A DNA stretch of 64,000 bases from positions 1-64,000 of the forward strand of contig NZ_WOFO01000004.1 in NCBI RefSeq assembly GCF_010993705.1, given 5' to 3'. Source of the DNA: Cyclobacterium sp. SYSU L10401. GTDB lineage: Bacteria; Bacteroidota; Bacteroidia; Cytophagales; Cyclobacteriaceae. Numbering within the stretch: position 1 is the stretch's first letter; each line of letters starts with the position of its first letter. The notes beneath the pieces were generated by a model. It was not told the origin of the DNA. It saw only the letters and a list, made by a program, of their open reading frames with translations, and ran no database searches. Shown in pieces: positions 27,108 to 60,279 of the stretch. The position numbers and the translations under genes were made by a program.

Positions 27108-27160
27108 GCAGGGTAAAATGTTTCATTTGGCGATGGGAATTTTATCCTGCTTTTTGTTTT
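27108..27160 (+). terminator. Plus-strand intrinsic terminator between fecR and susC (module 1)
   Basis: A 12-bp stem (27108-27119 with 27139-27150, one G-T pair) is followed by TTTTTGTTTT. The genes on both sides are on the minus strand, and the minus-strand copy has no T-run after the stem. It therefore terminates a transcript running antisense to the susC 5' region, if one exists. Confidence 0.75.
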
Positions 27161-27173
27161 ATCTCATAGGCAA

Positions 27174-28163
27174 TCAGAATTTTATCAGTACATTTTTTTG
27201 ATTGATTTGGTATTCAAATCCGAGGGAAAAACTCAAACCTGTCAATAGGTCTTCCAGACTTTCATTATTGAATAAACCGGTGACTTTTCTATTATCAAAG
27301 GCTTCCGTTTCGAATCGGACGCCATACCAATCTTCAAGAGATTCAAGGATTTCCCTGAAGGGTTTGCTCTGAAACCTAATCTTTCCTTCCTTCCATAACG
27401 TAATTTGAACCGGGTCAAATTTTTCTTTGGTCAAACTGGAAGCCATGTCGGGCTGCTCTGAGGCCATCTCTCCCGGAAAAAGAGAAATTACCTGAGCATC
27501 TTTGGCTACATTGACCCTTCCTTCTGTTAAAGAAATTTTAATGCCTTCCGCTCTGGAATAAGCATTAAAAGCCGTACCAAGGGCAGTAGTTATCACAGCT
27601 CCCGTTTTTACGATAAAGGGCTTTTCTTTATCCGGAGCTACTGAAAAAAATGCTTCACCCTCTAAGGTTATTTCCCTGTTGCTGGCCCCGAAATCGGAAT
27701 AAAAAGTGATGGTGGAAAGGGAGTTGACCACCACTTCAGACTTATCAGGGAGCAACAGTCGTAACTTCTCCCCTGCCGCTGTGCTTTTCTCAATTTTCGT
27801 TGGGGAAACCTCAGCCAAGGTGGGTTCACCCTTCGTTGAAAAACCCAACTCATAAAGAAAATAAACGGAAAAAAGCAACAATAAAAATGTCGCAGCCACC
27901 TTTCCAAATTTCAGCAATTGATAAAAAACTGCTTCCCTATTATGCCCCTCATCATTTTTCAGTGTGGCTTTGTGAATTTGATCCAGTAATTGTTGCTGCC
28001 TGGATTGACTCACATTCGCAGGCTTCCCGGATTGCCAGTCCTTTTCAAGCAGGTCCAAAAAATCATTTTCAGAACCGTTTTTTTTCAGCCAATCCATCAC
28101 CTCCCTATTTTCTTTAGGTGTGCTAAGGTTATTTAAAAATCTTATTAGCTTTCTTTCCTTCAA
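27174..28163 (-). CDS. FecR family anti-sigma factor (module 1)
   Basis: A 329-residue anti-sigma factor. Residues 1-88 are the cytoplasmic sigma-binding part, a single transmembrane helix lies at 89-107, the periplasmic FecR domain spans about 125-240 (LRLLLPDKSEVVVNSLSTITFYSDF, split over the domain) and a DUF4974-type domain runs from about 250 to the end (WYGVRFETEAF, FSLGFEYQINQ). It receives the signal from the STN domain of the SusC encoded 105 bp downstream and controls an ECF sigma factor. Its likely partner at 30278 is not adjacent: a sulfatase gene and a dead sulfatase lie between them. Confidence 0.93.
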   Translation of the reverse strand: MKERKLIRFLNNLSTPKENREVMDWLKKNGSENDFLDLLEKDWQSGKPANVSQSRQQQLLDQIHKATLKNDEGHNREAVFYQLLKFGKVAATFLLLLFSVYFLYELGFSTKGEPTLAEVSPTKIEKSTAAGEKLRLLLPDKSEVVVNSLSTITFYSDFGASNREITLEGEAFFSVAPDKEKPFIVKTGAVITTALGTAFNAYSRAEGIKISLTEGRVNVAKDAQVISLFPGEMASEQPDMASSLTKEKFDPVQITLWKEGKIRFQSKPFREILESLEDWYGVRFETEAFDNRKVTGLFNNESLEDLLTGLSFSLGFEYQINQKNVLIKF

Positions 28164-28444
28164 AATATCATTTCATTTTAAGCAATACACCTGACACCAA
28201 CTTATTACTTAAAAAAATCTAAAAAAATTTTATTCTGCCAGAGTCAGGCAATTATTTTATGTGCCATTTAGGCCTTACGGCAAGATTTCTTATGGTTTTC
28301 CGAAAATAGGCTTGTCCCCTGAGTCCCGTATCGATATACCCAATATTAAAGGCAAAAAAACACAGAAGGCTGAATTTCAAATGTTTTTAATCGAAACAAA
28401 TAAGCGAATTCGTATTCCCGAATTGGGTTAATATCGGTTCGATA

Positions 28445-29812
28445 CTATTCAGGTTTTTGCCAGGGAGTCTTGCCTCCTTCCTGAATATGGGACATCAACA
28501 AGGCATTTAATTTTTGATAAGTTTTCTGATTTTGCTCTATTACATTATTTTCCTCCTTCGGGTCTTCCTTAAGATTATATAACTCCATCGGCTGGTAAGG
28601 GTCGTTTTGGAGCAATTTCCAATCGCCCAGTCTAAGGGCATGGTAAGCTTTTCCGCCATATCGGGTTCCTCCTTCTCTTCTGACAAAATAAAGGGGTCTT
28701 TCTTTTTCCTCCATTATTTGACCCATAAGGGTCGGTAAAAAACTTCTGCCATTAACCCCATGTTCCAATTCAACACCTGCTATATCCGCAAGGGTAGGAT
28801 AAATATCCATTGACAGATTAACCTGTTCCGAAACAGACCCAGGCTCAATTACTTCAGGCCAGGAAATAACTGTAGGTACTCTTAATCCCCCTTCATACAT
28901 GCTTTGTTTCCCATCTCTAATTGGGCCATTATTGGCCAAAGACGGTAAATGTCCCCCATTATCACTTGTAAAAATAATCAGGGTATTCTCATACTGGCCG
29001 GTCTCCTTTAGCGCTTCCACTACTTTTCCTATACCATTGTCCATGTGTTCAATAAAGGCAACCAATTCGGCTCTTGTATCATGAATGCCTGGTTCTCTAT
29101 CTTTTACTTTTTTTAACCACTCTTCCGGAGGCTGAACAGGAAAATGAGGGGCATTATAGGCCAGGTAAAGAAAAAATGGATCCTTACTTTCCTTGCGAGA
29201 TTTGATGTATTCCACAGACCATTGGGTAAACAGATCAGTTGCATGTCCCTCCGGATCAATAATCTCTTCGTTAAGGCGCATGTAATTTCTCCCATGCCTT
29301 CTATGGGCCCAGTAATCGTCCATCATGTCTTCCAACCAGCCATGAAAATAGTCAAATCCATGTTCATTGGGAAGGTTGGGAGTTTCAAACCCTAAATTCC
29401 ATTTTCCGATGTGCGCCGTATGGTAATCTGCTCTTTTGAGCATGGCTGGCATCAGCAGGCTTGCAGGGTCCAAATATCCCCAGTTGTTATCCGGCGTAGA
29501 TCTTATCAATCCAGGAACCCCAACATGATCCGGATAACGGCCTGACATCAAAGAAGCCCTGGTGGGGGCACAGACTGGAGAATTGGTATAGAAAAAGTCC
29601 ATGCGCATACCGTCGTTTCTTATGTCATCTATATGAGGGGTACGAATGTCTTTTGTACCATAATAAGACACATCATGGTACCCTTGATCGTCTGTAAATA
29701 TGAATAAGATATTGGGTTTCTCTACCTGGGTATCTGATTGGCCAAAAACCTCCATGACATGAAATAATAAGCAGAAAACCGATATAATACCTAAGTTTTG
29801 GTGTATCATCAA
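28445..29812 (-). CDS. Sulfatase (CAPTR) inserted between sigma and fecR
   Basis: A 455-residue sulfatase with a signal peptide ending near FGQ (residue 25). DDQGYHDVSYYG (41-52), the formylglycine motif CAPTR (81-85), GKWNLG and TSDNGGHLPS follow in order. MYEGGLRVPTVISWP is the usual C-terminal subdomain entry. It lies between the module 1 sigma factor and its FecR partner, an unusual place, directly after a decayed sulfatase. There are 281 bases without a gene before fecR. The substrate is not known. Confidence 0.92.
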   Translation of the reverse strand: MMIHQNLGIISVFCLLFHVMEVFGQSDTQVEKPNILFIFTDDQGYHDVSYYGTKDIRTPHIDDIRNDGMRMDFFYTNSPVCAPTRASLMSGRYPDHVGVPGLIRSTPDNNWGYLDPASLLMPAMLKRADYHTAHIGKWNLGFETPNLPNEHGFDYFHGWLEDMMDDYWAHRRHGRNYMRLNEEIIDPEGHATDLFTQWSVEYIKSRKESKDPFFLYLAYNAPHFPVQPPEEWLKKVKDREPGIHDTRAELVAFIEHMDNGIGKVVEALKETGQYENTLIIFTSDNGGHLPSLANNGPIRDGKQSMYEGGLRVPTVISWPEVIEPGSVSEQVNLSMDIYPTLADIAGVELEHGVNGRSFLPTLMGQIMEEKERPLYFVRREGGTRYGGKAYHALRLGDWKLLQNDPYQPMELYNLKEDPKEENNVIEQNQKTYQKLNALLMSHIQEGGKTPWQKPE

Positions 29813-29833
29813 GAATTGTTTGTTTTACTAAAT

Positions 29834-30242
29834 TTATTCTTCCGGCCAGGAGAACGCTCTCCAGTCGACGGCTTCTTTTACATTTCATGATGCTATTCGG
29901 CAATGGTATAATCTTACTTTACCAAATGCATTTTTGAGAGGTATGGATCCAGTAGTAAATACCTACCCTGACTGAAGACCGCCCTGTAATCAATGATACC
30001 CTGCATGGCGAATAGACCGCAGAACCGGCATAGAAATCGGTAAACCTCATTTCTTCGGCGGCAAAGCGATCCAAATTTGGGGTTTGGACCTGGGTACTCC
30101 CATAACAACTCAGGTCCCGGTATCCCAGGTCATCCGCCAGTAGAATTACAATATTTGGTAGATGCGTGCTTCGACAATAAGTAGTGGTGATTCCTGTAAA
30201 CAAAATCAGTATAGAAAATAATTCAAATTTACGCTTCATCAC
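29834..30242 (-). pseudogene. Decayed sulfatase with lost active-site cysteine
   Basis: The start at 30242 gives a signal peptide and a sulfatase N-terminus (ADDLGYRDLSCYGS, QTPNLDRF). At the formylglycine motif the expected CSPSR reads YSPCR (residues 77-81), so the catalytic Cys is Tyr. The frame ends after SQKCIW; a one-base shift restores SQKMHL and, past two stops, DYTIAE, the next conserved block. From there the sequence jumps to a C-terminal tail (KEAVDWRAFSWPEE, stop at 29834). About 300 residues are missing. It is a dead gene with both ends kept. Confidence 0.85.
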
Positions 30243-30277: not shown

Positions 30278-30868
30278 TTAACCGGCAATTAAAACCAGGA
30301 TCAGTGGTCCGTACAGTGAAGCTCTTTGGGTCAACTCCCCCTTCAAAAACTTGGTTGCCAGATAAACATGGTGTTCTACTGTCCTTTTAGATAGGCTCAA
30401 TCGGGAGGCGATTTCATCATGGCTCAGGCCTTCTATTTTGCTTAAAACAAAAACTTTTTGTTGGGTTTTGGGTAGGTTTTTGATAAGTGCCGTGGCAGTA
30501 TTTTCCAGTTCTTTATAGGTTATATTTTCGAAGACATCCTCTGAACTGACGAAATACCTCTCTGGAATTTCTTCTATGGTGCAATTTTTCTTTTGATTCC
30601 TAAGCTTATTAAGTAGTTGATTTTTAACAGACTGAAACAAATAAGATTTGAAGTTTTGATTTTCATTCAGGCTACTTCTTTTTTCCCATATTTTGATAAA
30701 AATTACCTGTACCGTTTCTTCAGCCTCTAATTCGTCGCTAATGTAACGGTAAGCAAATCCGAGTAGCCTGGGAAGGTAGCGGTAATACAATTCATCAAAG
30801 GCCTTCATATCCCCCTGTCTAAGGGAACATACCAAGTCCTTCTCACTTTTGTTAATAAGTGGTCTCAA
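30278..30868 (-). CDS. ECF RNA polymerase sigma factor (module 1)
   Basis: A 196-residue Bacteroidota-type ECF sigma factor. Sigma region 2 covers about residues 20-85 (YYRYLPRLLGFAYRYI, then VQVIFIKIWEKR) and region 4 about 125-180 (LPKTQQKVFVLSKIEGLSHDEIASRL, split; SLSKRTVEHHV is the recognition helix). After region 4 there is a hydrophobic tail (SLYGPLILVLIAG). It presumably pairs with the FecR encoded at 27174 and directs transcription of the module 1 SusCD operon. It is the most upstream gene of that module. Confidence 0.92.
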   Translation of the reverse strand: MRPLINKSEKDLVCSLRQGDMKAFDELYYRYLPRLLGFAYRYISDELEAEETVQVIFIKIWEKRSSLNENQNFKSYLFQSVKNQLLNKLRNQKKNCTIEEIPERYFVSSEDVFENITYKELENTATALIKNLPKTQQKVFVLSKIEGLSHDEIASRLSLSKRTVEHHVYLATKFLKGELTQRASLYGPLILVLIAG

Positions 30869-44608: not shown

Positions 44609-47600
44609 TTAAAATTGAACATTCAATCCCAAGGTAAAGGTCCTCATAACTGGTAGTCCTGCCACCAGCCCTGTTCCGGTTTCGGGATCCCATCCCTCCC
44701 AATTGGTCAGGGTAATCAGGTTTTTGGCACTTAGATTTACCTTCAGATTACTGACTTTCCATTTTTCGAGGAATCCAGGGTCAAAAGAATAGGCCAATGA
44801 AATATCTTGGAGTCTTATAAAACTTCTTTGGTCATAAGGTCTAGCTTCGAAACTTGATGGCGTATCCAATCTTCTGTATTTTGCATTGGGGTTTTCAGGC
44901 ATCCAATAATCAAAAGGCATGGCATTGGAGTAGGTAAGTTGATCCCTTTTGAAAAAGGCTCCTGAAGCGTAGGGACTTCCGTCGGCATAATAGAAATCAC
45001 TCCCCCCCTGAATGGAATTGATAAACACATAAAGGGATAGATTTTTATACTTTAGGGTATTTCCAATCCCAAACCGATAGGAGGGGTCCCGGTATCCAAG
45101 GATTTTCCTGTCATTCGGTGTAATGATACCATCATCATCCACATCATTTAACTTATAAGTTCCTGGAAAAAATCCTTGTGGGACTTCATCTTCCAGCTGC
45201 CACATACCGACCACCTCGTAATCAAAAACAACATTCTGAGGTTCTCCAATAAAAAGTTGGTTGGTAACAATATCATCTTCCACTCCATCATTATCATTGT
45301 CTACTCCTAAAATAGACTTAATTTGGTTTCTATTTCTGGTGAAATTTAGAGTAGACTGCCAGGAAAAATCTCCGGTTCTAACCAATTCCCCTGTGAGAGA
45401 AAATTCAATACCATAATTAAAAACTTCTCCGATATTAGTGGCAATATTAGAAAAACCAGTTGTTTGAGGAATCTGGATATTGTAAAGAATATCTTCGGTG
45501 TTATTGTTGTAATATTCTATATTCCCAAACAATCTGGAGTTCAACATATCAAAATCAACTCCTAAATTAAGTCCGGTAGTGGTCTCCCAGGCCAAATTTG
45601 GATTTGCCATGGTGGTAATCCATTGTCCAATAGTTGCCGATCCCCCGTCACCAAACACCCTGCTGGGGGCAGCGTTCATTCTTGCCTGGGTTTCATACCT
45701 TCCCACACCCCGCCTGGCAGTCTGCCCGTAAGAGGCCCTTACCTTAAGGAATTCTACAATATCGGCGGTAAAAAATCCTTCTTCACTAAGTACCCAGCCA
45801 AGGGCAACAGATGGGAAAATTCCAAATTTGTTGTTCTCTCCAAAACCAGAAAACCCATCCCTTCGTAGGGTAGCCGTTAATAAGTACCGATCCTTATAAC
45901 CATAAAGGATTCTTCCCATACTATACAAACTCGTCTCTTCTTCAGCTCCTGAATTAATGACGTTCAGGGAGGGGTCACCTGCTTGCATTCGATGGAACCC
46001 CAAAGTAGGGTTTGCGAAATTTTGCGCAGCAGTGTTGGTGAAACTGGTTTGTATTTTTTCAACACCGTACAAAAAGGTCAAACTCAACCTATGGTCGTCT
46101 CGAAAGGTATTGTCATAACTAAAAATATTATCCAGAATATAACTGTAGTAATGATTGGAGTTTTTAAATCCTGAACCAGTAAAATTAGCCCCATGGGGGT
46201 CAAATTGATTGTGGGTATTGTTTCTGTAATTATGACCATAATTTACCCGATAATTAAAGCCCGGTAAAAATGGGAGTTTTACATCAAAATGGAAATTGCC
46301 AAATAGATTAATTCTTTTGTTTTCATCCTCTCTCTCAATCTGCATAAAAGGATTCAACCATGAACCCTCAGGTTGAGGGATAAATTCCCCATTTTCGTCA
46401 TAAATGGGTGCAAAAGGCTGCAAATGAAATATATTTTGAACAGATGGGGAATGGCCTGAATAATCACTCGAGGTCAAAAAGGTCTCCATCCCAAAATGCA
46501 ACCATTCCGTGATTTTGGTATCAAAGTTTGCTGTGAGATTTATTCTATTGAAAAGATCATTTTTTATAAAGCCTTTTTGATCTGTAATCCCAGCAGCTAC
46601 AAAATACCCTGAATTTTCTGTCCTACCCCTTATGCTTAGGTCATGTGTGTGGATATGGCCATTTCCTGTAAACATTCCCCACCAATCATTATCCAAATCG
46701 TTTTGAAAGCCCTGTGAAAGATCATTGGTTTTCAAAAATGGGACAACCGTAAAGTCTGGGTTCGTTTGCAGATAATCTGGAGGCAGTCGGCTCTGTTCCC
46801 AATAAATATGAGGTAAAAATTCTTTGTTTTCAGCGGTATTCCTGGGCCGTATATTTTTTGTTGGCACTTGAACGGTATACTGGCCGGAATAATTGATAAC
46901 AGGCTTACCCATATCAACTCCCTTTTTAGTAGTAAGCAATATAACACCATTTGCTGCCTGGGAGCCATAAATAGCCGCAGCACTCCCATCTTTCAGCACT
47001 TCTACTGACTGGATTTGGGCAGGGTTTATATCGATGATATTTCCCCGGTAAATTATGCCGTCGAGCACTATCAATGGGGCATTGTCTCCCGCACTGCTTG
47101 AAATCGTATTTTGTCCCCTCACTTCAATCCTTGGATCTTGACCGGATCGGGTGATGGCCCCTACGTTTAGTCCCGGTATCCGTCCTTGCAGCGACTGAAG
47201 CACACTGACATTCGGTAGTTCAAGTTGTTGTTCCACATCAACACTTGCAATGGCCCCGGTTAAATCCCTTTTTCGCACAGCTCCATACCCCACCACCACT
47301 ACTTCTTCCAGCGATGCCTGATCTTCTACCAGCGTAATGGAAAAGTTACTTTGATTCCCCACCGTGATGCGCTGAGATTCATAGCCGATAAAGGAAACCA
47401 ATAATACAGCTCCTTCCTCCGCATCCAAACTGAATTTTCCATCGATGTCGGTCGCCGTGCCTGTATTGGTTCCTTCTACCAGCACGGTAGCCCCGGGAAT
47501 GGGCTCCCCGTTTTCATCGGTTACGGTTCCCCTTATTTCTACCGCTACGGTAGAAACGGACACAACGGGTTTCTCCTGTCCTTTTCGGTCCGCCTTTACA

Positions 47601-47947
47601 TGGATATTATGGTTTATTTGCTTGAAATCCAATCCGGATTGTCGGGCTATCTCCACCAATACCTCATAAAGGCTTTGGTCCTTGTCCTCAACGAAAATGG
47701 GAGGCAAACTCCTGACTTCCTTTGTAAGATAAACAAAGGTGAAATCGGATACTCCTTCAATCTTCTTGAATGCATCCTTGACCGGGACTCCTTCCAGGGG
47801 CAGCCTGACCACCACCTCTTCTATACTTTTGATCTGGGCATTGCCATTCGAGGCAACTAAAAAGCCCATGGTCAAACACTGGAAAAGAAAAGCATAGGTA
47901 AATAATTTGCTCATGCGTATAACATGCCTAAGTATAAGATTTTTCAT
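44609..47947 (-). CDS. SusC/RagA family TonB-linked outer-membrane protein with STN domain (module 2)
   Basis: An 1112-residue TonB-dependent transporter. Signal peptide, STN domain (about 45-115), carboxypeptidase-like domain (IRGTVTDENGEPIPGA), TonB-box-like SLEEVVVVGYG, plug (LKDGSAAAIYGSQAANGV) and a barrel ending in TLGLNVQF follow in order. With the SusD encoded 12 bp downstream it imports oligosaccharides. The STN domain should signal to the FecR encoded upstream (174-bp gap containing a + strand terminator). The carboxypeptidase-like block is nearly the same in the module 3 SusC, also at the DNA level. Confidence 0.96.
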   Translation of the reverse strand: MKNLILRHVIRMSKLFTYAFLFQCLTMGFLVASNGNAQIKSIEEVVVRLPLEGVPVKDAFKKIEGVSDFTFVYLTKEVRSLPPIFVEDKDQSLYEVLVEIARQSGLDFKQINHNIHVKADRKGQEKPVVSVSTVAVEIRGTVTDENGEPIPGATVLVEGTNTGTATDIDGKFSLDAEEGAVLLVSFIGYESQRITVGNQSNFSITLVEDQASLEEVVVVGYGAVRKRDLTGAIASVDVEQQLELPNVSVLQSLQGRIPGLNVGAITRSGQDPRIEVRGQNTISSSAGDNAPLIVLDGIIYRGNIIDINPAQIQSVEVLKDGSAAAIYGSQAANGVILLTTKKGVDMGKPVINYSGQYTVQVPTKNIRPRNTAENKEFLPHIYWEQSRLPPDYLQTNPDFTVVPFLKTNDLSQGFQNDLDNDWWGMFTGNGHIHTHDLSIRGRTENSGYFVAAGITDQKGFIKNDLFNRINLTANFDTKITEWLHFGMETFLTSSDYSGHSPSVQNIFHLQPFAPIYDENGEFIPQPEGSWLNPFMQIEREDENKRINLFGNFHFDVKLPFLPGFNYRVNYGHNYRNNTHNQFDPHGANFTGSGFKNSNHYYSYILDNIFSYDNTFRDDHRLSLTFLYGVEKIQTSFTNTAAQNFANPTLGFHRMQAGDPSLNVINSGAEEETSLYSMGRILYGYKDRYLLTATLRRDGFSGFGENNKFGIFPSVALGWVLSEEGFFTADIVEFLKVRASYGQTARRGVGRYETQARMNAAPSRVFGDGGSATIGQWITTMANPNLAWETTTGLNLGVDFDMLNSRLFGNIEYYNNNTEDILYNIQIPQTTGFSNIATNIGEVFNYGIEFSLTGELVRTGDFSWQSTLNFTRNRNQIKSILGVDNDNDGVEDDIVTNQLFIGEPQNVVFDYEVVGMWQLEDEVPQGFFPGTYKLNDVDDDGIITPNDRKILGYRDPSYRFGIGNTLKYKNLSLYVFINSIQGGSDFYYADGSPYASGAFFKRDQLTYSNAMPFDYWMPENPNAKYRRLDTPSSFEARPYDQRSFIRLQDISLAYSFDPGFLEKWKVSNLKVNLSAKNLITLTNWEGWDPETGTGLVAGLPVMRTFTLGLNVQF

Positions 47948-48042
47948 ATCTTTACATGGTTTATTTTGGCTATTGTGTAAATGGTTGAATAAACGGGCAT
48001 CGGGTACTGATTAGCGTCAAATGGCCCGATGTTTTACTACTT

Positions 48043-48074
48043 CCGAAGGTGTTACAGCACCTTCGGTTTTTTTT
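48043..48074 (+). terminator. Plus-strand intrinsic terminator between fecR and susC (module 2)
   Basis: A perfect 9-bp stem (ccgaaggtg/caccttcgg), a 6-base loop and eight T. Both flanking genes are on the minus strand. In that direction the stem is preceded by A and not followed by T, so it acts on a + strand transcript. Confidence 0.85.
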
Positions 48075-48121
48075 ACTTTCAATCTGAATTAGTTTTCCAT
48101 GGGCAGTGAAGTTTTGGTTTA

Positions 48122-49210
48122 CTAGTTGAATGTTATGTTGACCTGGTCCTTTTCGATCCTGAAATCAAGCCCTGCCGTATAGCTCAGGCCTGCCAGCACG
48201 TTTTCCAGCGTCTCATTATGAAATTTCCCCGAAAGGCGCTTTCCGGGTTTCGGTTGGTTTTGAAAATGAAACCTGACCCCGTACCAGTTTTCCAAAGCCC
48301 TGATGGCTTCCGCCAACTTCGTATCCTCAAACACAATGGTTTTTCTAGTCCAGGCCAGGATGGCATCCTCATCAAATTTAGTCCTGGAAACCAGCATTTT
48401 ATCCGGACTGATACTTATCGCCTCTTTTGGAGCCAATAAAATTTTTTCATCTATTGAATTTGGCAGCGCTATGGATACCTTTCCAGCAACCAGAGAAACC
48501 ATTTGTTTTTCATCTTTATAGGCCATGATATTAAAGGAAGTACCCAAGGCAGTGGTATTGACTCCTCCTGCATTTACCGTAAAGGGCCGATCTGGGTCAT
48601 GTGCCACTTCAAAAAAGGCTTCCCCTTCCAAAAAGACATCCCGAGCCTCTTTGAATCTACTCTCCTCATAGGATAAACTGCTTCCCGCATTTAGCATTAC
48701 TCTTGTTCCATCAGCCAGGGAAATACTAGATTTTACACCTGGAGGGTTATTGAAAACGACCTTCTTCACGGGTTGGGGAATCTCTACCGTTGGTTCAGGA
48801 AGCGTATAGCGGCTCGTAAAAAAACCTACCCCCAATGCTATCAGCAATATGGAGGCAATTCGCCAAAAATAGCCTACCTGAAAAGAGTCCTGAGTACTGT
48901 TGGGCTTCTCTTTTACAACCCCTTGCCTGATAGGCACCACCTTTGTAAGTTGCTTTTGTTGGTCTTCTTTAGTGGTTTTGGTCTCTATATTGTCCCAGAT
49001 CTCCTTATATTCCTTATCCTGAAGCGGGTATTGATTTGAAAACAACTCCAAAATAAGCTCCCTGGCCAGCTCCACATCCTTCACAGAGGTGGGATTATCG
49101 GACAAATACTGCTTCCAGATCTTATTACGTTCGGAACTTGGATTTAATACCCATTTCCTAAACTCCGGGTTTAGCACCAGGCCTTTGACTGTATCGTTGT
49201 AAATATCCAT
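48122..49210 (-). CDS. FecR family anti-sigma factor (module 2)
   Basis: A 362-residue anti-sigma factor with a cytoplasmic N-terminus (1-114), a transmembrane helix (115-133), a periplasmic FecR domain (about 150-270, VKSSISLADGTRVMLNAGSSL split) and a DUF4974-type C-terminus (WYGVRFHFQNQ, LSYTAGLDFRIEKDQ). It lies 75 bp after the ECF sigma gene and 174 bp before susC, the classical order of a trans-envelope signalling trio. It should hold the sigma factor until SusC reports substrate. Confidence 0.94.
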   Translation of the reverse strand: MDIYNDTVKGLVLNPEFRKWVLNPSSERNKIWKQYLSDNPTSVKDVELARELILELFSNQYPLQDKEYKEIWDNIETKTTKEDQQKQLTKVVPIRQGVVKEKPNSTQDSFQVGYFWRIASILLIALGVGFFTSRYTLPEPTVEIPQPVKKVVFNNPPGVKSSISLADGTRVMLNAGSSLSYEESRFKEARDVFLEGEAFFEVAHDPDRPFTVNAGGVNTTALGTSFNIMAYKDEKQMVSLVAGKVSIALPNSIDEKILLAPKEAISISPDKMLVSRTKFDEDAILAWTRKTIVFEDTKLAEAIRALENWYGVRFHFQNQPKPGKRLSGKFHNETLENVLAGLSYTAGLDFRIEKDQVNITFN

Positions 49211-49285
49211 TTAGGCATGTTTTCATGGATAGGTGTCAAACAAACCAAAAATCTATCCTTTATTTTTGGACTATTTTCAAAAAAA

Positions 49286-49906
49286 TTAATTGAAGTTGCT
49301 TAAAAGGGAAAAATAAAGTGAAATAAAGAGGATATAAAGTTTTCTTAACTTGCATAAGGCCTTCCAGCTCAGTGTATATACGGACTGAACATTGATCCCC
49401 ATCAGCTTGGCAACCTGTTCATTGGGAAGGTTTTCGAAAAACACGTAGCGGATTACTTCCATCTGTCTGGGTGAAAGTTTGGAAAGGGCTTCTGACAATC
49501 TCCGGTTGTTGGCTTCTTCCGGATGGATGTGGATCATCCCAGACTCCGCTTCATTTTGATAATAAAGCGAATTTGCACCCAGTTCCTGATCGTTGGCATG
49601 TCTCTTTTTTTCTCTGGCCAATTCCTTTTTGATTTTATTGGAAAGGGCCTTAAAGACATAAACTTTCACATTTTTGACGGCTGCCCCGTTTCTCCTGTAC
49701 CGCCAAATCTCGATAAAAAGTTCTTGAATGCAATCCTTGATCAGAGTCCGGTTAGGGACAATGGAAAGGCCAAAAGCCATCATTTCACTGGCAAATAGCG
49801 CATAAAGACCCTCTAAACCCGTTTTATCATCCTGCTGAATACGCATCCAGCAATCCTTGCTTTCAGCAACAGTCCTATCAACAATATGCGAATGAGGTTG
49901 GCTCAC
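49286..49906 (-). CDS. ECF RNA polymerase sigma factor (module 2)
   Basis: A 206-residue ECF sigma factor. Region 2 spans about residues 30-95 (LYALFASEMMAFGLSIV, IQELFIEIWRYR) and region 4 about 135-190 (LSPRQMEVIRYVFFENLPNEQVAKL split; GINVQSVYTLSWKAL). The start codon is GTG at 49906; no ATG is available upstream in frame before a stop. The C-terminus is a strongly hydrophobic tail (LYILFISLYFSLLSNF). It is the first gene of module 2 and is followed by its FecR partner. Confidence 0.92.
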   Translation of the reverse strand: MSQPHSHIVDRTVAESKDCWMRIQQDDKTGLEGLYALFASEMMAFGLSIVPNRTLIKDCIQELFIEIWRYRRNGAAVKNVKVYVFKALSNKIKKELAREKKRHANDQELGANSLYYQNEAESGMIHIHPEEANNRRLSEALSKLSPRQMEVIRYVFFENLPNEQVAKLMGINVQSVYTLSWKALCKLRKLYILFISLYFSLLSNFN

Positions 49907-50299
49907 TTTTGAGTTAATTTGGGTTTACTATTCAATAGTAGAAAAAAATTTGGTAAGATACCAATATTATTTGTGGTAAAGTAGTTTTTTAAAAAAAGGA
50001 AGTACTTTTGATTCACCAAATAGGTTGTTTAGAAGGTTCACATGCAGGTCAAAAATGCTTAAACCCAAAAAAATAGATTATAGGAAAAGGAATGGCACGT
50101 CCAAGGCAATCATCCATCTTCACCGCTACTCATCATTTCATTTTATGGTTATTGTGCTTAAACTTTACATGCGCTGATTCCCGGCAGGACCTGCAATGAA
50201 ATTGTTTACAAGGCCTGCCATCTATTCAATTCAATTTTGCATTTGAAAATTAAGTGGTCACTTATATTCTTAAAATTGGTAGCGGGTGTAATGGGCATA
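49907..50299. other. Intergenic region between modules 2 and 3
   Basis: A 393-bp AT-rich stretch upstream of the module 2 sigma gene. It should hold its promoter. A 35-codon plus-strand frame (50092-50199) lies in it. No repeat or RNA gene was recognised. Confidence 0.5.
50092..50199 (+). other. Possible lipoprotein/signal-peptide gene stub
   Basis: A 35-residue frame with a good ribosome-binding site (aggaaaagga) and a start MARPRQSS, followed by a hydrophobic stretch (FILWLLCLNFTCADS) that resembles a lipoprotein signal. It stops soon after, so it may be the beginning of a lost plus-strand gene. It is short and may be chance. Confidence 0.25.
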
Positions 50300-50542
50300 T
50301 CAGAGCCACATTCCAATGGAGGCATAAGATTGGATATTAGTAAAACGCATTCCCTGAAAATACATAGAATCAAGGTACACGGTTTTTATTTTTGAATGTG
50401 GGTGAACAGAATAAATCCCCAACCCCAGGTCATCGGCCATGATCAGGATGATGTTGGGGGGATCTGGGGTTTGGCCAAAAGAACCAATGCTATTAAAACA
50501 AAAAATGAAGAAAGTATAAATTACTACTTCCATGTACTTCAT
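50300..50542 (-). pseudogene. Sulfatase 5' stub (copy of the 35688-37106 gene)
   Basis: The 80-residue frame begins with 40 residues almost identical to the start of the 472-residue sulfatase at 37106, with its signal peptide and IILIMADDLG. It then switches to a different sulfatase-like segment (KIKTVYLDSMYFQGMRFTN) and stops before the formylglycine motif. The spacing to the next upstream sulfatase gene (54 bp) is the same as at the original site. It is the remains of a duplicated gene pair whose first member is at 50597, possibly joined to debris of another sulfatase. Confidence 0.85.
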
Positions 50543-50596
50543 ATATATTACCTCTTTTCAATTATTTAAAATTGTTTAATCTTCGAAACTCCTAAT

Positions 50597-52222: not shown

Positions 52223-52279
52223 TTTTGACGCCTTAAGTTGGTACCATTTTATATACATCCTTTTTTGTTTCCAGTCAGA

Positions 52280-53839: not shown

Positions 53840-53894
53840 GCTTGTTATTATTTGTTAACTGATAATTCTTTTAGTTACGCAGGTCTAAGAGGGA

Positions 53895-55235
53895 TCAGGT
53901 CAGTATCGTTTCTTCATTTAAACCTGATTCCCATTCTTTATAAGCTTTATTTAATTCCTGAAAAATATCCGGATATTCATCGCTGACATCATTTAATTCC
54001 TGAACATCAGTTGACAGATTATATAAAGATGATTCCCCATCTATGATCAATAATTTCCATTGTCCCTTTCTTGCAGCAGCCTGATTTTTAAACCTCCAGA
54101 ACACAGTCCTCGCTTCTTCCTCAATATCAGGGATGGGCCCATCAAATATTTCTGACATGTCCTTTCCGGACAAATCCTTTGGTACTTCCAAACCCATCAG
54201 GCTGGCGATAGTGGGAAATAAATCCATGGACAATACCAATGCATCAGATTCTCCGGGAGTAATTTTATCTTTCCAGGAGAAAATTGCCGGCACCCTGTGC
54301 CCTCCCTCATAAAGTTGACCTTTAAAGCCACTGTAAGGAGCATTTGATCCTACATTTTTAGTGCCTCCGTTATCTGAACAGAAAATTACAAGGGTTTGCT
54401 CTGCCAGCCGGTTCTTTTCCAAATATTCCATTAACTTTCCAACATTCTCATCCAATGATTCAATCATCTCCTTATAGGCAGCTGCTTTATCTTCACGGCT
54501 TCCCTGTATTTGAAAATTACCGCCAACCGTTCTATCTGCCTGATCATTGGGTCCCTGATAGGGATAATGTGGAGCTCCGTGGGCCAAATACAGAAAAAAA
54601 GGTTTATCAGCTTCTTTTTTTTCCAAAAACGCCATGGCATTATCGGATATCAGGTCAGTCAAATAACCGGTTTCCTTTTGAAGGCTTTGATTGATCCACC
54701 AATCTTCATATCCCTCTTGATCGATATGGCTGAAATAATCCACATTCCCACTCACGAATCCTTTAAATTGATCAAAGCCTTGTATATTGGGCCCAAATTC
54801 CGGCTCATAACCCAAATGCCATTTTCCATATATAGCTGTTGCATAGCCAGATTCTTTTAAATATTCCCCCAATGTAAGTTTATCGGGAGACATACCGCTC
54901 TTCCTATGGCTTTTGGCAGTTACAACTCCTTCTACTCCAGCTTCCTGAGGATAAAGGCCGGTTAAAAGAGCGGCCCGGGTCGGACTACACACCACCCCAT
55001 TGGAATGGTAATCGGTGAGCCTTATCCCCGAAGCGGCCAGACGATCAATATTTGGGGTATGGACCGTAGAATTTCCATAACAGCCCAGGTCATTGAAACC
55101 CATATCATCAGCCATAATAAGCACTACATTGGGTAGGGTCCTTTCTGGGTTGTAATGGGCCTCCTTACTGGGTTGGGAATTACATCCCCAACCCAGTAAA
55201 GCCAATAGACCCATCCCATAAATGATTTTTCTCAT
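53895..55235 (-). CDS. Sulfatase (CSPTR), first enzyme of module 3
   Basis: A 446-residue predicted lipoprotein (lipobox LGWGC, Cys18). DDMGFNDLGCYGNST (43-57), CSPTR (83-87) in VVCSPTRAALLTGLYPQEAG, GKWHLG and CSDNGGTKN follow. It is shorter than the neighbouring sulfatases and of a different subtype (no YNP element). It starts 11 bp after the SusD stop in module 3 and precedes two YNP-type sulfatases. The substrate is unknown. Confidence 0.93.
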   Translation of the reverse strand: MRKIIYGMGLLALLGWGCNSQPSKEAHYNPERTLPNVVLIMADDMGFNDLGCYGNSTVHTPNIDRLAASGIRLTDYHSNGVVCSPTRAALLTGLYPQEAGVEGVVTAKSHRKSGMSPDKLTLGEYLKESGYATAIYGKWHLGYEPEFGPNIQGFDQFKGFVSGNVDYFSHIDQEGYEDWWINQSLQKETGYLTDLISDNAMAFLEKKEADKPFFLYLAHGAPHYPYQGPNDQADRTVGGNFQIQGSREDKAAAYKEMIESLDENVGKLMEYLEKNRLAEQTLVIFCSDNGGTKNVGSNAPYSGFKGQLYEGGHRVPAIFSWKDKITPGESDALVLSMDLFPTIASLMGLEVPKDLSGKDMSEIFDGPIPDIEEEARTVFWRFKNQAAARKGQWKLLIIDGESSLYNLSTDVQELNDVSDEYPDIFQELNKAYKEWESGLNEETILT

Positions 55236-55246
55236 ATTGCCTTTCT

Positions 55247-56752
55247 TTAATATCCCGGGTTTTGTTCTCCCAATTGAGCATTATTTACAAATTCTATAGA
55301 AGGAAGCGGGTAAAGAAAATATTTCTTGCCCGTAATAGGATGGTCTATCAAGCGTTGTTGAGGGAAATTAAGTCCTGTAAATCCCATCTGGTTTTGAATG
55401 ACTTCTCTAAGAATCCCATACCGGTTTAAATCAAAATACCTTTTGGTTTCAAAAGCCAACTCTATTCTTCTTTCATCCCGTAATCTATTCCTAAAAGCAT
55501 CTTGATTAGGAAGGTCAACAGCATCAAGGGCAGGAAGACCGGCATTGATCCTGACCTGATTGAGCAATTCAAAAGCTTCCCCATCAGCCTGATAGCCGAT
55601 TTCATTCAACGCCTCAGCCCGATTCAGTAAAATTTCAGCATACCTGATCAAGGGAAAATTCCAGGTACTTAACGATTGGGGATCATCCGTATTAAAATAC
55701 TTATTGACAAAATTGAGGCTGCCATCTGGCTTGGAAGGATCTATGAAATTAGACAATCCATAATCCTGGACGATTACTGCTCTGCGGTTATCACCGGCTT
55801 CGAATAGTTGAATGATACCATTTCCTGAAGACAATCCTCCACCTTCACCATTTAAATTATCATCTGTTGGTAAAATGAAAGCCAAACCATTGAGGAAATC
55901 AGGTGGCGCAAAGGCAACGCTCTTGGAGGAGGTAGTTTGCCCTATTACCCCACCATATTGCACTTCAAAAAAAGAGGCTTCGCTATTTTCCTGGGAGCCA
56001 TTAAAATGATCAGCATAATCCGCTAACAAGGAACCGGCACCAATGAGGCTACTGGTAACCTGGGAGACTTCATTCCACTCCTCCAATTCCAAATGTACAG
56101 CGGAAAGAAGTGCCATGGCCGAATATGTGGTTGGTCTGCCGTTTTCCATTCCTATACCACCGGAATAATTTTCTGGCAATAAGTTTATGGCATCGTTTAA
56201 ATCAGATTTTATTTGGTTATAAATATCCAATAAACTTTCCCTTGGTAATTCAGCGTCCTCTCTTGTTTCTATTTCGTTGATAATTAAGGGTACTTCTCCA
56301 AATAACCTGACCAAATTAAAATAATACAAAGCCCTCATGAATTTAGCCTGACCTTCTATGGCGTTTTCCATTACAGGACCGGAGAAATCTTCGACCCTGG
56401 ATATATTATCCAGGACAGTATTGGCACGGGTAATTCCAGTATAGTGCAAACCCCAGGTTGTTTCGATATAGCCTAAAGTTGGATCTACGTTAAAAATATC
56501 CGGCTCAGTTTCCTTCCTCCAGGTCCAGCCATCATCACTAGCCAGATCAGTAAGTTGAAACATTACGTTTTGATACAAAGGATTTAAAGGCTGGTAAACA
56601 CCATTGACGGCAGTGATGATATTACTTTCTGTCGTAAACAGATCGGCCATAGGAACAAGGCCCTCAGGTGCTGGTTCCAGAATAGATTCGCAGCTCATGG
56701 AAAAAGCAGTTAATACTATTCCTATATTTTTGAAAATTTTATTGCTTTTCAT
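55247..56752 (-). CDS. SusD/RagB family outer-membrane lipoprotein (module 3)
   Basis: A 501-residue surface glycan-binding lipoprotein; lipobox SMSC with Cys21. Typical SusD blocks include GQAKFMRALYYFNLVRLFGE, LIRYAEILLNRAEALNEIG and the C-terminal RDERRIELAFETKRYFDLNR. The protein starts 39 bp after the SusC stop. A sulfatase follows after 11 bp, so transport and desulfation are tightly co-expressed. Confidence 0.94.
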   Translation of the reverse strand: MKSNKIFKNIGIVLTAFSMSCESILEPAPEGLVPMADLFTTESNIITAVNGVYQPLNPLYQNVMFQLTDLASDDGWTWRKETEPDIFNVDPTLGYIETTWGLHYTGITRANTVLDNISRVEDFSGPVMENAIEGQAKFMRALYYFNLVRLFGEVPLIINEIETREDAELPRESLLDIYNQIKSDLNDAINLLPENYSGGIGMENGRPTTYSAMALLSAVHLELEEWNEVSQVTSSLIGAGSLLADYADHFNGSQENSEASFFEVQYGGVIGQTTSSKSVAFAPPDFLNGLAFILPTDDNLNGEGGGLSSGNGIIQLFEAGDNRRAVIVQDYGLSNFIDPSKPDGSLNFVNKYFNTDDPQSLSTWNFPLIRYAEILLNRAEALNEIGYQADGEAFELLNQVRINAGLPALDAVDLPNQDAFRNRLRDERRIELAFETKRYFDLNRYGILREVIQNQMGFTGLNFPQQRLIDHPITGKKYFLYPLPSIEFVNNAQLGEQNPGY

Positions 56753-56791
56753 CGTATTTTTGATTTCTAGTTTTATGGAAAATTAGAAAAT

Positions 56792-59700
56792 TTAGAAGGT
56801 CACCTGGGCAGACAACGAAACCAATCTGGTTTGTGGATAAGGGGTATAATCTATTCCAGATGATAACAAACTGGTCCTGCTGGAAGCTTCCGGATCCAGT
56901 CCCGTGTAGTTAGTAAACATTAACAAATTGGTACCAGTCAAGGTTAGTTTGGTACTTTGAATGGACTTTCCAACAAACCATTCCAAGGGGAAATTATAGG
57001 ATAAACTAAGATTTTTTAACCTAACAAAATCTCCCGTTTCCAAAAACCGGTCTGACACCATGGTTACAAGCGTGGTGGTATTTCCACCTTGTGAAGGCCT
57101 GGGAATTGTGCTACTTGGGTTTTCAGGTGTCCAGAAACCATTTACCTCGGCAAAGTTTTGAACAAAAGGCACTCCTCTGGCCAAAAGGTTTCTTGCCGTA
57201 TTATAAACCTGGTATCCGCCGGCAAAATCAAAAAACACGGAAAGATTAAAATTCTTATAATTGAAAGTATTATCTATTCCTCCAAAATATTTTGGATGGG
57301 GATTTCCCACAAAGGTCTTGTCGCCTGCATCGAATACTCCATTTCCGTTATTGTCCTTGTACTTGGGATCTCCAGGTACTGCACCAGACCAGCTTGAGGC
57401 TTCATCTTCTTCTCCCAATTGCCAGACCCCATCATATTGCCACATGTAAAAGGATCCAACCGGATGTCCAGCCCTGGATAGATTGGCAGGTTGGTTAGAA
57501 AGAGGGATATTTTGTCCTGGAATTTCCAGTGACTCTCCAATAGAATTTGTACCTATATCCAATACTTCATTTTTATTAAATGAAATATTGAAATTGGTGC
57601 TCCAGGAAATTGCTCCAACAGTGTTTCTCGAATTGACTGAAAATTCGAAGCCGGAATTCAAAACCGAACCCAAATTCACAACAGGATCCTGTGCAACCCC
57701 TGCCGTTAGAGGAATGGGAGTTGAAACCAATAAATCCTGGGAAACACGATTATAATAATCTGCGGTAGCATAAATCCTTCCCTCCAAAATGGAAATGTCA
57801 ATCCCTGCATCAAATTGTTTTGTACTTTCCCATTGTAAAAATGGATTTCCTATATTTTGGGGAGAATTTCCGATGACCAGACTGTTTCCAAATACATAGG
57901 GAGTGGATGCAGCCCGGGTTAGGAATGCAAAATTCCCAATTTCTTGATTTCCTGTAAGTCCATAACTGGTTCTTATTTTAAGGTCATCAATAAAATTGGA
58001 GGATTTAAGGAACTCCTCTTCTGATACCCTCCAGGCGATGGATCCGGACGGAAAAACGCCAAACCTTGTGGAGGGACCAAATTTTGAGGAGCCATCCCGC
58101 CTTACTGTTCCTGTTAATAGTAATTTATCATTATAGGAATAGTTTGCCCTGAAAAAGGAGGAAATTAATCCGGAACTTACCTTTGATCCATTGGCATTGA
58201 AGTTAATCTGGTTCGAGAGTTGATTTAAGGAATTATTGACCGTTCCTGAACCTGATATTGAATTGTTATTAAAGATAAACTGCTGGGCAGAAAATCCAGC
58301 TAATAATTTAAAATCATGGCTATTTATTCTTTTCTCATAATTTGCGGTAACATCGGATACCCAATTGATTTCCTGTCTATTGGGCACAGTAACGCTTCCT
58401 TCCGGGCGCGTGAATCTCCCAATTTGGTAAACCGGCATGTAAGTATAGCCACTGCCCAATATCAAATCCCCTCCAACATTAGCCGAAATGGTTAGATCAT
58501 CCATGGGCTTGAAATCAAACCTGGTGTTTCCCATTAATCGGGTTACATCTTCCTCCCGGGTAGGCAACAAGAGATCTATCAAAGGATTATCATTGGCACC
58601 AAAATAAGGGGCAGCAGTTGTATTGATGGCGGTCAAATTGCCATTATCATCATATGCTGGCGTGTAGGAATGTTGAAAAGCCAAACTTCGGTATCCGGTG
58701 GATCCCCAGTTATCATTATTCTGAACATTCTGTTTTTGATGGCTTCCGGTCATATTCGTAGATACCTTTAACCACTTATTGATTTCAGAACTTACATTCA
58801 ATCTTAAAAACCAGGTTTTTAAATCAGAGTTAATGAGCGTCCCTTTCCTGTCCAGATAGGAAACAGATCCTGAAAATTGGGTTTTTTCAGATCCTCCGCT
58901 AAAACCAAGATTGTAATTTTGCCTTACCCCTGTCTGAGTTCCCAGTTCCTGCCAATCGTTATCTACCTGCCAGGAAGGGTGACCAGGATCATCATATACG
59001 GAAATATTCCGGTTTGAATTTTTAAAAGCTTCTACAAACAAAGCCCTTTGCTCCTGTGAACTCATTACATCAAACCTTCGGGTGATTTCTTCTAAGCCAA
59101 TATCTGCATTGAAGGTGAATTGAGTTTTACCTGCCTGACCCTTTTTGGTCGTGATGATGACTACGCCATTGGCAGCTCTTGCCCCGTATATTGCCGTTGC
59201 TGAGGCATCTTTAAGAATATCTATGGCTGTGATGTCTTTTGGATTGATGGTAGAAAAATCCGAACTGAAAAGCGGTACACCATCCACTACGATTAAGGGA
59301 TCATTACTACCTGTTACAGATCCAATCCCTCTGATGTTGATAGAAAATTTTCCATTGAGGTCTCCTCCTGTTTGCCTCACCTGGACGCCACTGGCCCTTC
59401 CCTGCAATGCATCTTCAAAATTGGCCACAGGTCTGGATTGTAGAAGGTCTTCTGATACCGATGAAACAGAACCAGTAATATCAGCTTTTTTCTGCGTTCC
59501 ATACCCCACCACCACTACTTCCTCTAACGAAGATTGATCCTCCATCAGGGTAATGGACAAGCTGCTTTGGTTTCCTACCGTAATCCGCTGAGATTCATAA
59601 CCGATAAAGGAAACCAACAATACCGCTCCTTCCTCCGCATCCAGGCTGAATTGGCCCTCTATGTCCGTGGCTGTACCCGTATTGGTGCCTTCTATCAGAA

Positions 59701-60157
59701 TGGTAGCACCCGGAATGGGATTCCCATTTTCATCTACCACCGTTCCGGTGATGGGCCTTAGCTCCACATCAGACATAACCTGAACCTTCGGTTGTTCCGT
59801 AGGGACAACATCGATGGTATGGTTCATCTGGCGAAAACCCAATTTTAACTGTTGACTGGCTGTTTTGAGGCGGTCTTCTACCGTGCCTGATTCCGTGTCA
59901 AATTGAATACGCTGGGATTTGTTCAGCTTTTTATTGTCGTAAGCAAACTTAAATGGTGTTTTCCCTTCTATTTCGTTAAAAAATTGCCGGACATTCATTG
60001 AAGAAGCCGATAAGCGGATGGTGACTTCCTCAATGCGCTTGTATTGGCCTTTTGCCTGCATGATACTGGCAAAATTGACCAGCAGCATTTGTAAAATTAA
60101 GCCATATAAAAAGCCTTTGGACAACATGAGTATTGCCTTTAGTAATTTATTTTTCAT
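56792..60157 (-). CDS. SusC/RagA family TonB-linked outer-membrane protein with STN domain (module 3)
   Basis: An 1121-residue TonB-dependent transporter: signal peptide, STN domain (about 45-115), carboxypeptidase-like domain (ITGTVVDENGNPIPGA), SLEEVVVVGYG, plug (LKDASATAIYGARAANGV) and a barrel ending in VSLSAQVTF. It works with the SusD encoded 39 bp downstream. The STN domain should signal to the FecR encoded 148 bp upstream; that gap holds a + strand terminator. Confidence 0.96.
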   Translation of the reverse strand: MKNKLLKAILMLSKGFLYGLILQMLLVNFASIMQAKGQYKRIEEVTIRLSASSMNVRQFFNEIEGKTPFKFAYDNKKLNKSQRIQFDTESGTVEDRLKTASQQLKLGFRQMNHTIDVVPTEQPKVQVMSDVELRPITGTVVDENGNPIPGATILIEGTNTGTATDIEGQFSLDAEEGAVLLVSFIGYESQRITVGNQSSLSITLMEDQSSLEEVVVVGYGTQKKADITGSVSSVSEDLLQSRPVANFEDALQGRASGVQVRQTGGDLNGKFSINIRGIGSVTGSNDPLIVVDGVPLFSSDFSTINPKDITAIDILKDASATAIYGARAANGVVIITTKKGQAGKTQFTFNADIGLEEITRRFDVMSSQEQRALFVEAFKNSNRNISVYDDPGHPSWQVDNDWQELGTQTGVRQNYNLGFSGGSEKTQFSGSVSYLDRKGTLINSDLKTWFLRLNVSSEINKWLKVSTNMTGSHQKQNVQNNDNWGSTGYRSLAFQHSYTPAYDDNGNLTAINTTAAPYFGANDNPLIDLLLPTREEDVTRLMGNTRFDFKPMDDLTISANVGGDLILGSGYTYMPVYQIGRFTRPEGSVTVPNRQEINWVSDVTANYEKRINSHDFKLLAGFSAQQFIFNNNSISGSGTVNNSLNQLSNQINFNANGSKVSSGLISSFFRANYSYNDKLLLTGTVRRDGSSKFGPSTRFGVFPSGSIAWRVSEEEFLKSSNFIDDLKIRTSYGLTGNQEIGNFAFLTRAASTPYVFGNSLVIGNSPQNIGNPFLQWESTKQFDAGIDISILEGRIYATADYYNRVSQDLLVSTPIPLTAGVAQDPVVNLGSVLNSGFEFSVNSRNTVGAISWSTNFNISFNKNEVLDIGTNSIGESLEIPGQNIPLSNQPANLSRAGHPVGSFYMWQYDGVWQLGEEDEASSWSGAVPGDPKYKDNNGNGVFDAGDKTFVGNPHPKYFGGIDNTFNYKNFNLSVFFDFAGGYQVYNTARNLLARGVPFVQNFAEVNGFWTPENPSSTIPRPSQGGNTTTLVTMVSDRFLETGDFVRLKNLSLSYNFPLEWFVGKSIQSTKLTLTGTNLLMFTNYTGLDPEASSRTSLLSSGIDYTPYPQTRLVSLSAQVTF

Positions 60158-60250
60158 AATTTTGGATGTTTATTGGAATTTGATTTCAATAAGCCTGGTC
60201 TTTTGATGGCCCCATTCCCCAATGTACACCATCATCAGACCAGTCCTGAG

Positions 60251-60279
60251 CCGGTTGGTTTTTACCAGCCGGTTTTTTT
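60251..60279 (+). terminator. Plus-strand intrinsic terminator between fecR and susC (module 3)
   Basis: An 8-bp stem (ccggttgg/ccagccgg, one G-T pair), a six-base T-rich loop and seven T follow each other. The neighbouring genes run on the minus strand. As in modules 1 and 2, the T-run is on the + strand side only. Confidence 0.75.

Follow-up and report, generated by a model that had tools for sequence, protein, structure and literature searches.

Does the leader of susC in a glycan uptake module face an RNA of its own? The question is raised by a stretch of 64,000 nucleotides (nt) from Cyclobacterium sp. SYSU L10401 (contig NZ_WOFO01000004.1, positions 1 to 64,000), which we call the window. 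It carries three minus-strand modules that by Pfam each hold a FecR/FecR_C anti-sigma factor, a SusC-like receptor (CarbopepD_reg_2, Plug) and a SusD. The original prediction was that the gap between fecR and susC contains, in all three, a strong stem followed by T on the plus strand only, and that each module makes a short antisense RNA over the susC leader. Strand-specific structure and covariation now support such an RNA, as do sequence conservation, a promoter-like box matched to the terminator, and the finding of the same arrangement in other genomes; judged from these features it very probably exists.

Antisense terminators in the fecR-susC gaps

The stem and T-run were where they had been predicted in all three gaps, as located by scanning, folding and a covariance model (Table 1), and the three plus-strand elements fit the definition of an intrinsic terminator, a GC-rich stem with a run of T on one strand. 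The module 1 hairpin, which the covariance model places at 27108-27164 (+), was shown by that model and by folding; a generic terminator scan did not list it, probably because the scan tolerated neither a bulge nor a loop longer than 8. Folding energies of the whole gaps on the plus and minus strands were −29.1 and −10.4 kcal/mol in module 1, −50.2 and −35.0 in module 2, and −52.1 and −42.8 in module 3. Much of this difference arises because G-U pairs turn into A-C mismatches on the other strand. The restriction of the T-run to the plus strand also held: this 5.9-Mb genome has 14 fecR-susC gaps in total, and in 14 of 14 no terminator in the sense direction of susC reaches −10 kcal/mol, a weaker one in the module 2 gap standing at −9.4. 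The stems had been described as different in sequence. This holds when the three are compared with one another, yet the module 1 stem has relatives in sequence, two of them elsewhere in the same genome. An Rfam scan of the window gave only a tRNA at the gathering cut-off; in the three gaps, the only matches at E ≤ 1 were SNORD45 (23.2 bits, cut-off 42) and Hrs13 (23.5 bits, cut-off 52, E = 0.0008).

The arrangement shared by the three modules is real but not special to them, as most sampled fecR-susC gaps have it. Our sample of 256 loci gave 252 gaps (none from L057, L233, L282 and L305), or 227 after identical gaps were removed. These comprise 215 from the window's own genome, its genus, its family and other families of the class, and 12 from other classes of the phylum. 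The highest entries in listings of FecR_C scores supplied the family and class gaps; another 80 regions were hand-picked from these listings rather than drawn at random, and near-identical Arenibacter gaps were counted separately. We scored a terminator as a hairpin of −13 kcal/mol or lower (−10 where stated) followed by a T-rich tail, and made four dinucleotide shuffles per gap as a chance control. A reversed hairpin of this kind was found in 161 of the 215 gaps, and sense terminators in 17. Antisense and sense terminators numbered 11 and 0 in the 14 gaps of the own genome, 61 and 4 in the 73 of the genus, 49 and 3 in the 69 of the family, and 40 and 10 in the 59 of other families of the class. 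After shuffling, antisense terminators appeared in 12-13% of gaps from the own genome, genus and family and in 9% of those from the class (6-13% over groups). A first set of 116 distinct gaps, scored at −15 kcal/mol, had 90 antisense and 3 sense. The other classes of the phylum, with only 12 gaps, gave 3 antisense and no sense terminators.

As controls, we used susC-like genes of the own genome without a detected fecR. There were 84 Plug matches, of which 70 were examined and 58 kept, 56 with an ATG; fecR-adjacent genes and genes without a clear signal peptide were dropped, and starts were set by a heuristic. Antisense terminators precede 3 of these 58 genes and sense terminators 5.

Two observations concern the reach of the arrangement. 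One of the three control genes with an antisense terminator (L151, C9 near 1140672, SusC-like) has a hairpin, a T-tail and a perfect TAATTTTG box at its start codon. It lacks an STN domain, and a search of 1 kb upstream on the strand of the gene found no fecR; the arrangement may thus extend beyond FecR-linked genes. In Flavobacteriaceae, Arenibacter (L237, L238 and L240-L242) and another member carry relatives of the module 3 receptor at 56-59% identity (57-59% in Arenibacter), and these loci keep antisense terminators and TAnnTTTA boxes. The Arenibacter relatives were possibly transferred between orders.

A promoter-like box at the start codon and an element beside fecR

The earlier suggestion was to look for the promoter of the antisense RNA within the first 150 bp of susC. 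It probably does not lie deep in the gene; its predicted −7 box overlaps the susC ATG itself. Read on the antisense strand from the start codon on, the box is TAnnTTT(A/G), its first T being the complement of the A of ATG. It is sigma-A-like, resembling the −7 element reported for the flavobacterial primary sigma factor, TAnnTTTG at −12 to −5 (PMC9723704). Scored as A at position 2 and TTT at positions 5-7, the box occurs in 122 of the 172 gaps that have a terminator at −10 kcal/mol and in 7 of the 43 that have none. By group, the figures were 7/11 and 0/3 for the own genome, 55/63 and 3/10 for the genus, 29/53 and 4/16 for the family, and 31/45 and 0/14 for the class. At −13 kcal/mol they were 116/161 and 13/54 overall, and 7 of 56 control receptor genes have the box. 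Base frequencies at −1 and at −4 to −6 are clearly unlike those of the controls. In the family and class, 17 of 60 gaps have TTTG upstream of the box at a spacing of 16-20 nt, compared with 3 of 26 gaps that lack both box and terminator and with 3 of 56 controls; gaps of the own genus show TTG at spacer 21 instead (14/62). From the box position we infer that RNA synthesis would begin about 11 nt upstream of the ATG in each module (Table 1), so that the predicted RNAs would cover only the leader. Predicted lengths over 116 gaps have a median of 99.5 nt and a 5-95% range of 74-135.

Two candidate signals deeper in susC were rejected. TTTG stands at +41 to +38 in all three modules, and since it coincides with a Ser-Lys codon pair common to the three proteins, we did not take it as evidence. 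An AGTA block at +16 to +13 on the antisense strand was set aside, TTAC near +12 being frequent in fecR-less genes as well. In those controls TTAC starts at +6 to +16 in 30 of 56 genes and at +12 in 16; it occurs in all frames, 18 of the 30 being in frame, which suggests that the signal near the susC start is partly at the nucleotide level.

At the other end of the gap, heptamer counting singled out GCCTATG on the sense strand, present in 34 of 123 gaps against 0.6 expected from shuffles. The exact heptamer stands in 85 of the 227 gaps and its reverse complement in none; within 300 nt of the start it occurs in 2 of 58 controls, and the window as a whole shows no enrichment (8 copies where 5.9 are expected). 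It is found close to the stop codon of fecR; in gaps from outside the genus, its distance to the ATG is 98-159 nt. In 75 of 77 cases the stem of the antisense terminator lies downstream of it. No second box was found at a fixed distance from it, and so we go no further than to infer that GCCTATG is part of the promoter from which an extracytoplasmic function (ECF) sigma factor transcribes susC. In a literature search for GCCTATG, no promoter study appeared by title among the matches listed.

Conservation was followed in genus orthologues, with six or seven relatives per module. From the T-tract to the ATG, the gap is conserved about as much as coding sequence or more. Windows of module 1 score 0.92-1.00 in the gap, 0.68-0.87 in fecR and 0.68-0.90 in susC beyond +35; in module 2, 7 genomes agree at every position over the final 34 nt of the gap and the 45 nt with which susC begins. 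Beyond the T-tract, towards fecR, conservation drops to 0.71-0.91 in modules 2 and 3. Within susC, same-codon conservation at identical residues (390 pairs) is 0.97 for codons 1-5, 0.72 for codons 6-10 and 0.80 for codons 11-15, falling to 0.57 after codon 15 and to 0.38-0.50 past codon 80; codons 1-10 of fecR score 0.67. Constraint on the DNA may thus extend some 45 nt into the gene, which is what an antisense promoter in this place would lead one to expect, although early codons are constrained in general.

Strand and location of the predicted RNA

We then folded both strands of every gap with a length of 60 nt or more. The antisense fold was lower in 185 of 198 (own genome 11/12, genus 65/72, family 63/66, class 46/48). 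Relative to dinucleotide shuffles, z-scores for own genome, genus, family and class were −4.2, −4.2, −3.1 and −2.9 on the antisense strand and −2.4, −2.6, −2.2 and −2.0 on the sense strand (Wilcoxon p = 0.007, 8 × 10−11, 2 × 10−5 and 8 × 10−6), with base composition alone predicting about half or more of the energy difference between strands. In other classes of the phylum the strands do not differ: the antisense fold was lower in 7 of 9 gaps, with equal z-scores on both.

Single orthologue groups are nearly identical and too thin for covariation (module 3 orthologues have one pair changed on both sides, on either strand), so we used the module 1 paralogue family instead, which has 29 related gaps in the sampled set, 3 from the own genome and 26 from the genus. 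Its 24 distinct hairpins (384 cells) form standard pairs in 98.2% of cells when read antisense and 84.6% when read sense. On the antisense strand four pairs are changed on both sides, and one pair occurs as CG, AU, GU, UA and UG; read in the sense direction, 15 of the 24 sequences break one pair and all 24 break another. On both strands, the number of paired cells, the number of cells with both sides changed and the covariation score exceeded a shuffle control (0/500). It was not clearly exceeded for pairs changed on both sides (106/500 antisense, 77/500 sense) or for further pair types (139/500 and 459/500). As the sequences are related, these counts are not probabilities, and the call of the strand rests on the pairs that break when the stem is read sense. 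At the level of sequence, the alignment shows selection for antisense-strand pairing in the module 1 type. Read in the sense direction, leaders of this type contain an upstream ATG (CAAATG) in 28 of 29; the frame behind it varies from 2 to 50 residues, and a leader peptide starting there is not supported.

A covariance model of the module 1 hairpin gave at least 35 matches in 12 genomes of the genus. Of 30 fetched as loci, 27 lie in a fecR-susC gap on the opposite strand, and two more (L350 and L354) lie in such gaps once mis-set gap borders are allowed for; the other 5 matches stand, by their coordinates, 36-40 nt before SusC N-terminal matches on the opposite strand. No free-standing module-1-type hairpin was found among the 35 genus matches listed. 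At L330 (G061:C37:122913-122969), a module-1-type antisense hairpin and a fecR are followed by no module 1 SusC match, similarity ending shortly past the hairpin on the susC side. In 60 family genomes plus the own genome, the model matched at least 13 times, 3 of them in the own genome; of the other 10, the five best (E ≤ 2 × 10−6) lie in fecR-susC gaps and the five weaker ones elsewhere. Standing opposite susC starts, module-1-type RNAs appear to be cis elements. Their loop core (ATTTG..GA) is invariant while the stem varies, and the own genome has three copies. A purely cis-acting RNA would not need an invariant loop; the loop might bind a protein, adopt a fold of its own or pair with the leaders of sister modules. 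The RNA-binding domain RRM_1 (PF00076) has 0 matches in the own genome; a control genome, Bacteroides ihuae, does match.

Proposed control of susC, rival readings and related systems

DonS of Bacteroides fragilis and its relatives are reported as antisense RNAs of 78-128 nt, divergent to susC homologues and with a negative effect (PMC7366714). From the terminators, their strand, the linked promoter-like box, the order of these parts and their recurrence, all read directly in the DNA, we propose that each module encodes a short cis-antisense RNA of this kind opposite its susC leader. RNA polymerase with the primary sigma factor would start at a promoter in which the complement of the susC start codon forms part of the −7 box (TAnnTTTR), run away from susC through a structured complement of the leader of about 75-135 nt, and stop at the intrinsic terminator just before the conserved GCCTATG. 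While FecR holds the ECF sigma factor, the antisense RNA would dominate; any basal susC transcript would encounter an RNA complementary to its entire leader, or polymerases moving in the two directions would collide, and the importer would stay off. Glycan signals would release the sigma factor, and sense transcription from GCCTATG would then overrun the antisense. We regard this explanation as a whole, DonS-type cis-antisense RNAs over the susC leader that probably repress susC, as likely. Repression in cis as the main effect, taken by analogy with DonS, seems to us fairly probable.

Several observations weigh against this explanation. Three of the 14 own-genome gaps (28, 47 and 128 nt long) have no terminator, 4 of the 11 that have one lack the full box, and exact GCCTATG is absent from 142 of 227 gaps. 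The final G of the box consensus is often replaced by A, as it is in modules 1 and 2, and module 2 has no clear −33 element. In the class, the box contrast is weaker at −13 kcal/mol (26/40 against 5/19) than at −10. The A-rich bases before the ATG, which are part of the box, could serve susC translation, since both features share the same bases. An open reading frame of at least 20 codons occurs in 23 of 116 predicted RNAs. Furthermore, the susC-like genes are related, so their gaps are not independent. Repression itself is not assured, as antisense RNA and susC are sometimes positively correlated in Bacteroides thetaiotaomicron, according to PMC10994844.

We considered other roles for the same DNA. 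The terminator could be a guard that halts stray antisense transcription from susC and shields the sense promoter and fecR, with no dedicated RNA. It does lie between the susC side and GCCTATG/fecR, and much bacterial antisense transcription may be noise (PMC7366714, PMC9723704). A mere guard does not account for a promoter-like box coupled to the terminator, conservation from the T-tract to the ATG, or the extra hairpins before the terminator in modules 2 and 3, and we find it improbable. Still less probable, indeed very unlikely, is a structured leader on the sense strand, whether mRNA stabilizer, attenuator or riboswitch. The complement does fold, if less (z of −2.0 to −2.6), the stem keeps compensatory changes, and the upstream ATG is nearly constant in module-1-type leaders. 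Against this, wobble pairs favour the antisense strand, sense T-tails are rare, the upstream frame varies in length, and no Rfam family but the tRNA reaches its cut-off. The strand comparison, by folding and by broken pairs, led us to reject sense-strand structure as the main role.

An antisense RNA may also be real and act mainly in a positive way or in trans, by protecting, titrating or pairing with the leaders of sister modules. The invariant loop core on a varying stem, in three copies, would suit such a role, as would the positive correlations seen for some B. thetaiotaomicron pairs (PMC10994844). But 34 of the 35 genus matches listed stand opposite a susC start and the remaining one where susC was lost, and DonS is reported to repress its own locus (PMC7366714, PMC11697453); we hold this to be unlikely. 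Chance inverted repeats in AT-rich gaps have next to no probability. Weak hairpin-plus-T matches are common (generic scan, 31 in 44500-64000 against 21.7 in shuffles, 8 in 22000-30000 against 9.6), but strength, strand bias, covariation and recurrence argue against chance, and the 215 gaps are not equal on both strands. A broader version of our explanation is tentative and rather unlikely: face-to-face ECF/FecR susC units throughout Bacteroidia, in which the start-codon-fused antisense promoter and GCCTATG would delimit a two-way leader, and in which the shared loop of the module 1 type would let modules silence each other without an RRM-type protein.

CopA/CopT and RNAII of pMV158 are classical structured cis-antisense RNAs complementary to a leader. 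The RNAs predicted here differ in being chromosomal, one per nutrient-uptake module, beside ECF sigma/FecR genes. They are closer to DonS, likewise a short RNA opposite the susC 5′ region of a polysaccharide utilization locus (PUL), here predicted from terminator and box positions. The predicted lengths of about 82, 117 and 112 nt, counted from predicted 5′ ends, compare with 78-128 nt. Host-glycan PULs of the kind controlled by DonS are described as typically under ECF sigma/anti-sigma pairs (PMC11697453), a setting that gene content suggests for our three modules. Unlike DonS, the present RNAs belong to Cyclobacteriaceae and Flavobacteriaceae and are predicted from sequence; for them we describe a putative start-codon-fused promoter, GCCTATG and a covarying stem. 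FopS, reported as a family of 14 paralogues (9 of them intergenic, 4 antisense and 1 derived from a 3′ untranslated region) with many targets and bound by an RRM-1 protein (PMC11697453), and GibS, with RbpB in B. thetaiotaomicron, offer another comparison. FopS too act at the 5′ end of susC mRNAs, whereas the RNAs here lie opposite their own susC, in a genome where no RRM_1 (RbpB-type) protein was found. The Rfam scan of the window gave no FopS match, the presence of FopS in that Rfam set being unconfirmed.

Antisense RNAs of this kind are an established concept in Bacteroides, to which the present analysis adds breadth, a promoter position and structural evidence. PUL antisense RNAs have been described from gut Bacteroides, where the accounts available to us leave their mode of action unclear. 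In B. thetaiotaomicron, 32 PUL-associated antisense RNAs are reported, with mixed correlations to susC (PMC10994844), and a flavobacterial transcriptome study offers its antisense list as a start for similar studies (PMC9723704). In the literature searched, outside which subscription papers largely fall, we found no such RNAs in Cyclobacteriaceae and no description of a start-codon-fused antisense promoter. If our explanation is true and applies as widely as the 215 gaps indicate, glycan uptake under sigma/FecR control would include antisense control as a standard part in environmental Bacteroidota as well. The start-codon-fused promoter and GCCTATG are precise, testable sites, and the covariance model finds members by sequence.

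Table 1. Positions of genes and leader elements of the three modules in the window
Feature	Position	Strand	Remarks
Module 1 susC-like TonB-dependent receptor	23688..27068	−	CarbopepD_reg_2, Plug
Module 1 antisense −7 box, TAATTTTA	27068..27075	+	TTAG 20 nt upstream (27044-27047)
Module 1 predicted antisense RNA	27079..27160	+	about 82 nt; 5′ end placed from the −7 box
Module 1 antisense terminator	27108..27160	+	long hairpin 27108-27150, T-rich tail to 27160; covarying family (model R1)
Module 1 GCCTATG	27165..27171	−	exact, adjoins fecR stop; candidate sense susC promoter element
Module 1 fecR, anti-sigma factor	27174..28163	−	Pfam
ECF sigma factor near module 1	30278..30868		sulfatase gene between it and module 1 fecR
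Module 2 susC-like receptor	44609..47947	−	CarbopepD_reg_2, Plug, beta-barrel
Module 2 antisense −7 box, TATCTTTA	47947..47954	+	fused to susC start codon
Module 2 predicted antisense RNA	47958..48074	+	about 117 nt; 5′ end predicted
Module 2 first antisense hairpin	47995..48034	+	ahead of terminator
Module 2 antisense terminator	48043..48074	+	stem 48043-48066, T to 48074
Module 2 GCCCATG	48098..48104	−	one mismatch; several orthologues have GCCTATG
Module 2 fecR	48122..49210	−	Pfam
Module 2 sigma-70 region 4 protein	49286..49906	−	adjoins fecR; putative ECF type
Module 3 susC-like receptor	56792..60157	−	CarbopepD_reg_2, Plug, beta-barrel
Module 3 antisense −7 box, TAATTTTG	60157..60164	+	fused to susC start codon; TTG at 60133-60135, spacer 21
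Module 3 predicted antisense RNA	60168..60279	+	about 112 nt; 5′ end predicted
Module 3 small third hairpin	60168..60194	+	at 5′ end of predicted antisense RNA
Module 3 main antisense hairpin	60195..60243	+	ahead of terminator
Module 3 antisense terminator	60248..60279	+	stem 60248-60275, T to 60279
Module 3 AAGTATG	60299..60305	−	at GCCTATG position; TATG alone kept
Module 3 fecR	60306..61343	−	Pfam
Module 3 sigma-70 region 2 (weak) and region 4 protein	62161..62772	−	putative ECF type

Gene content around the modules

Among the SusC-like receptors of the three modules, only that of module 1 shows an STN match (E = 4 × 10−6, yet under the curated cut-off). Loci in C. salsum, C. lianum and C. 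jeungdonense match the module 3 SusC at 93-95% in the best segment. Four sulfatases were found beside the modules among the proteins scanned (28445-29812, 50597-52258, 52280-53839 and 53895-55235), which suggests that the substrates are sulfated polysaccharides. In module 3, fecR and the sigma gene are separated by a long gap (61344-62160) with strong hairpins, in which elements of the GCTGCGCTCGCAATGACG type and the CACAAAGCGCACGAA type occur inverted and repeated. Upstream of the same sigma gene, at 62905-62934, lies an inverted repeat of 13 pairs with a T-rich tail on the plus strand.

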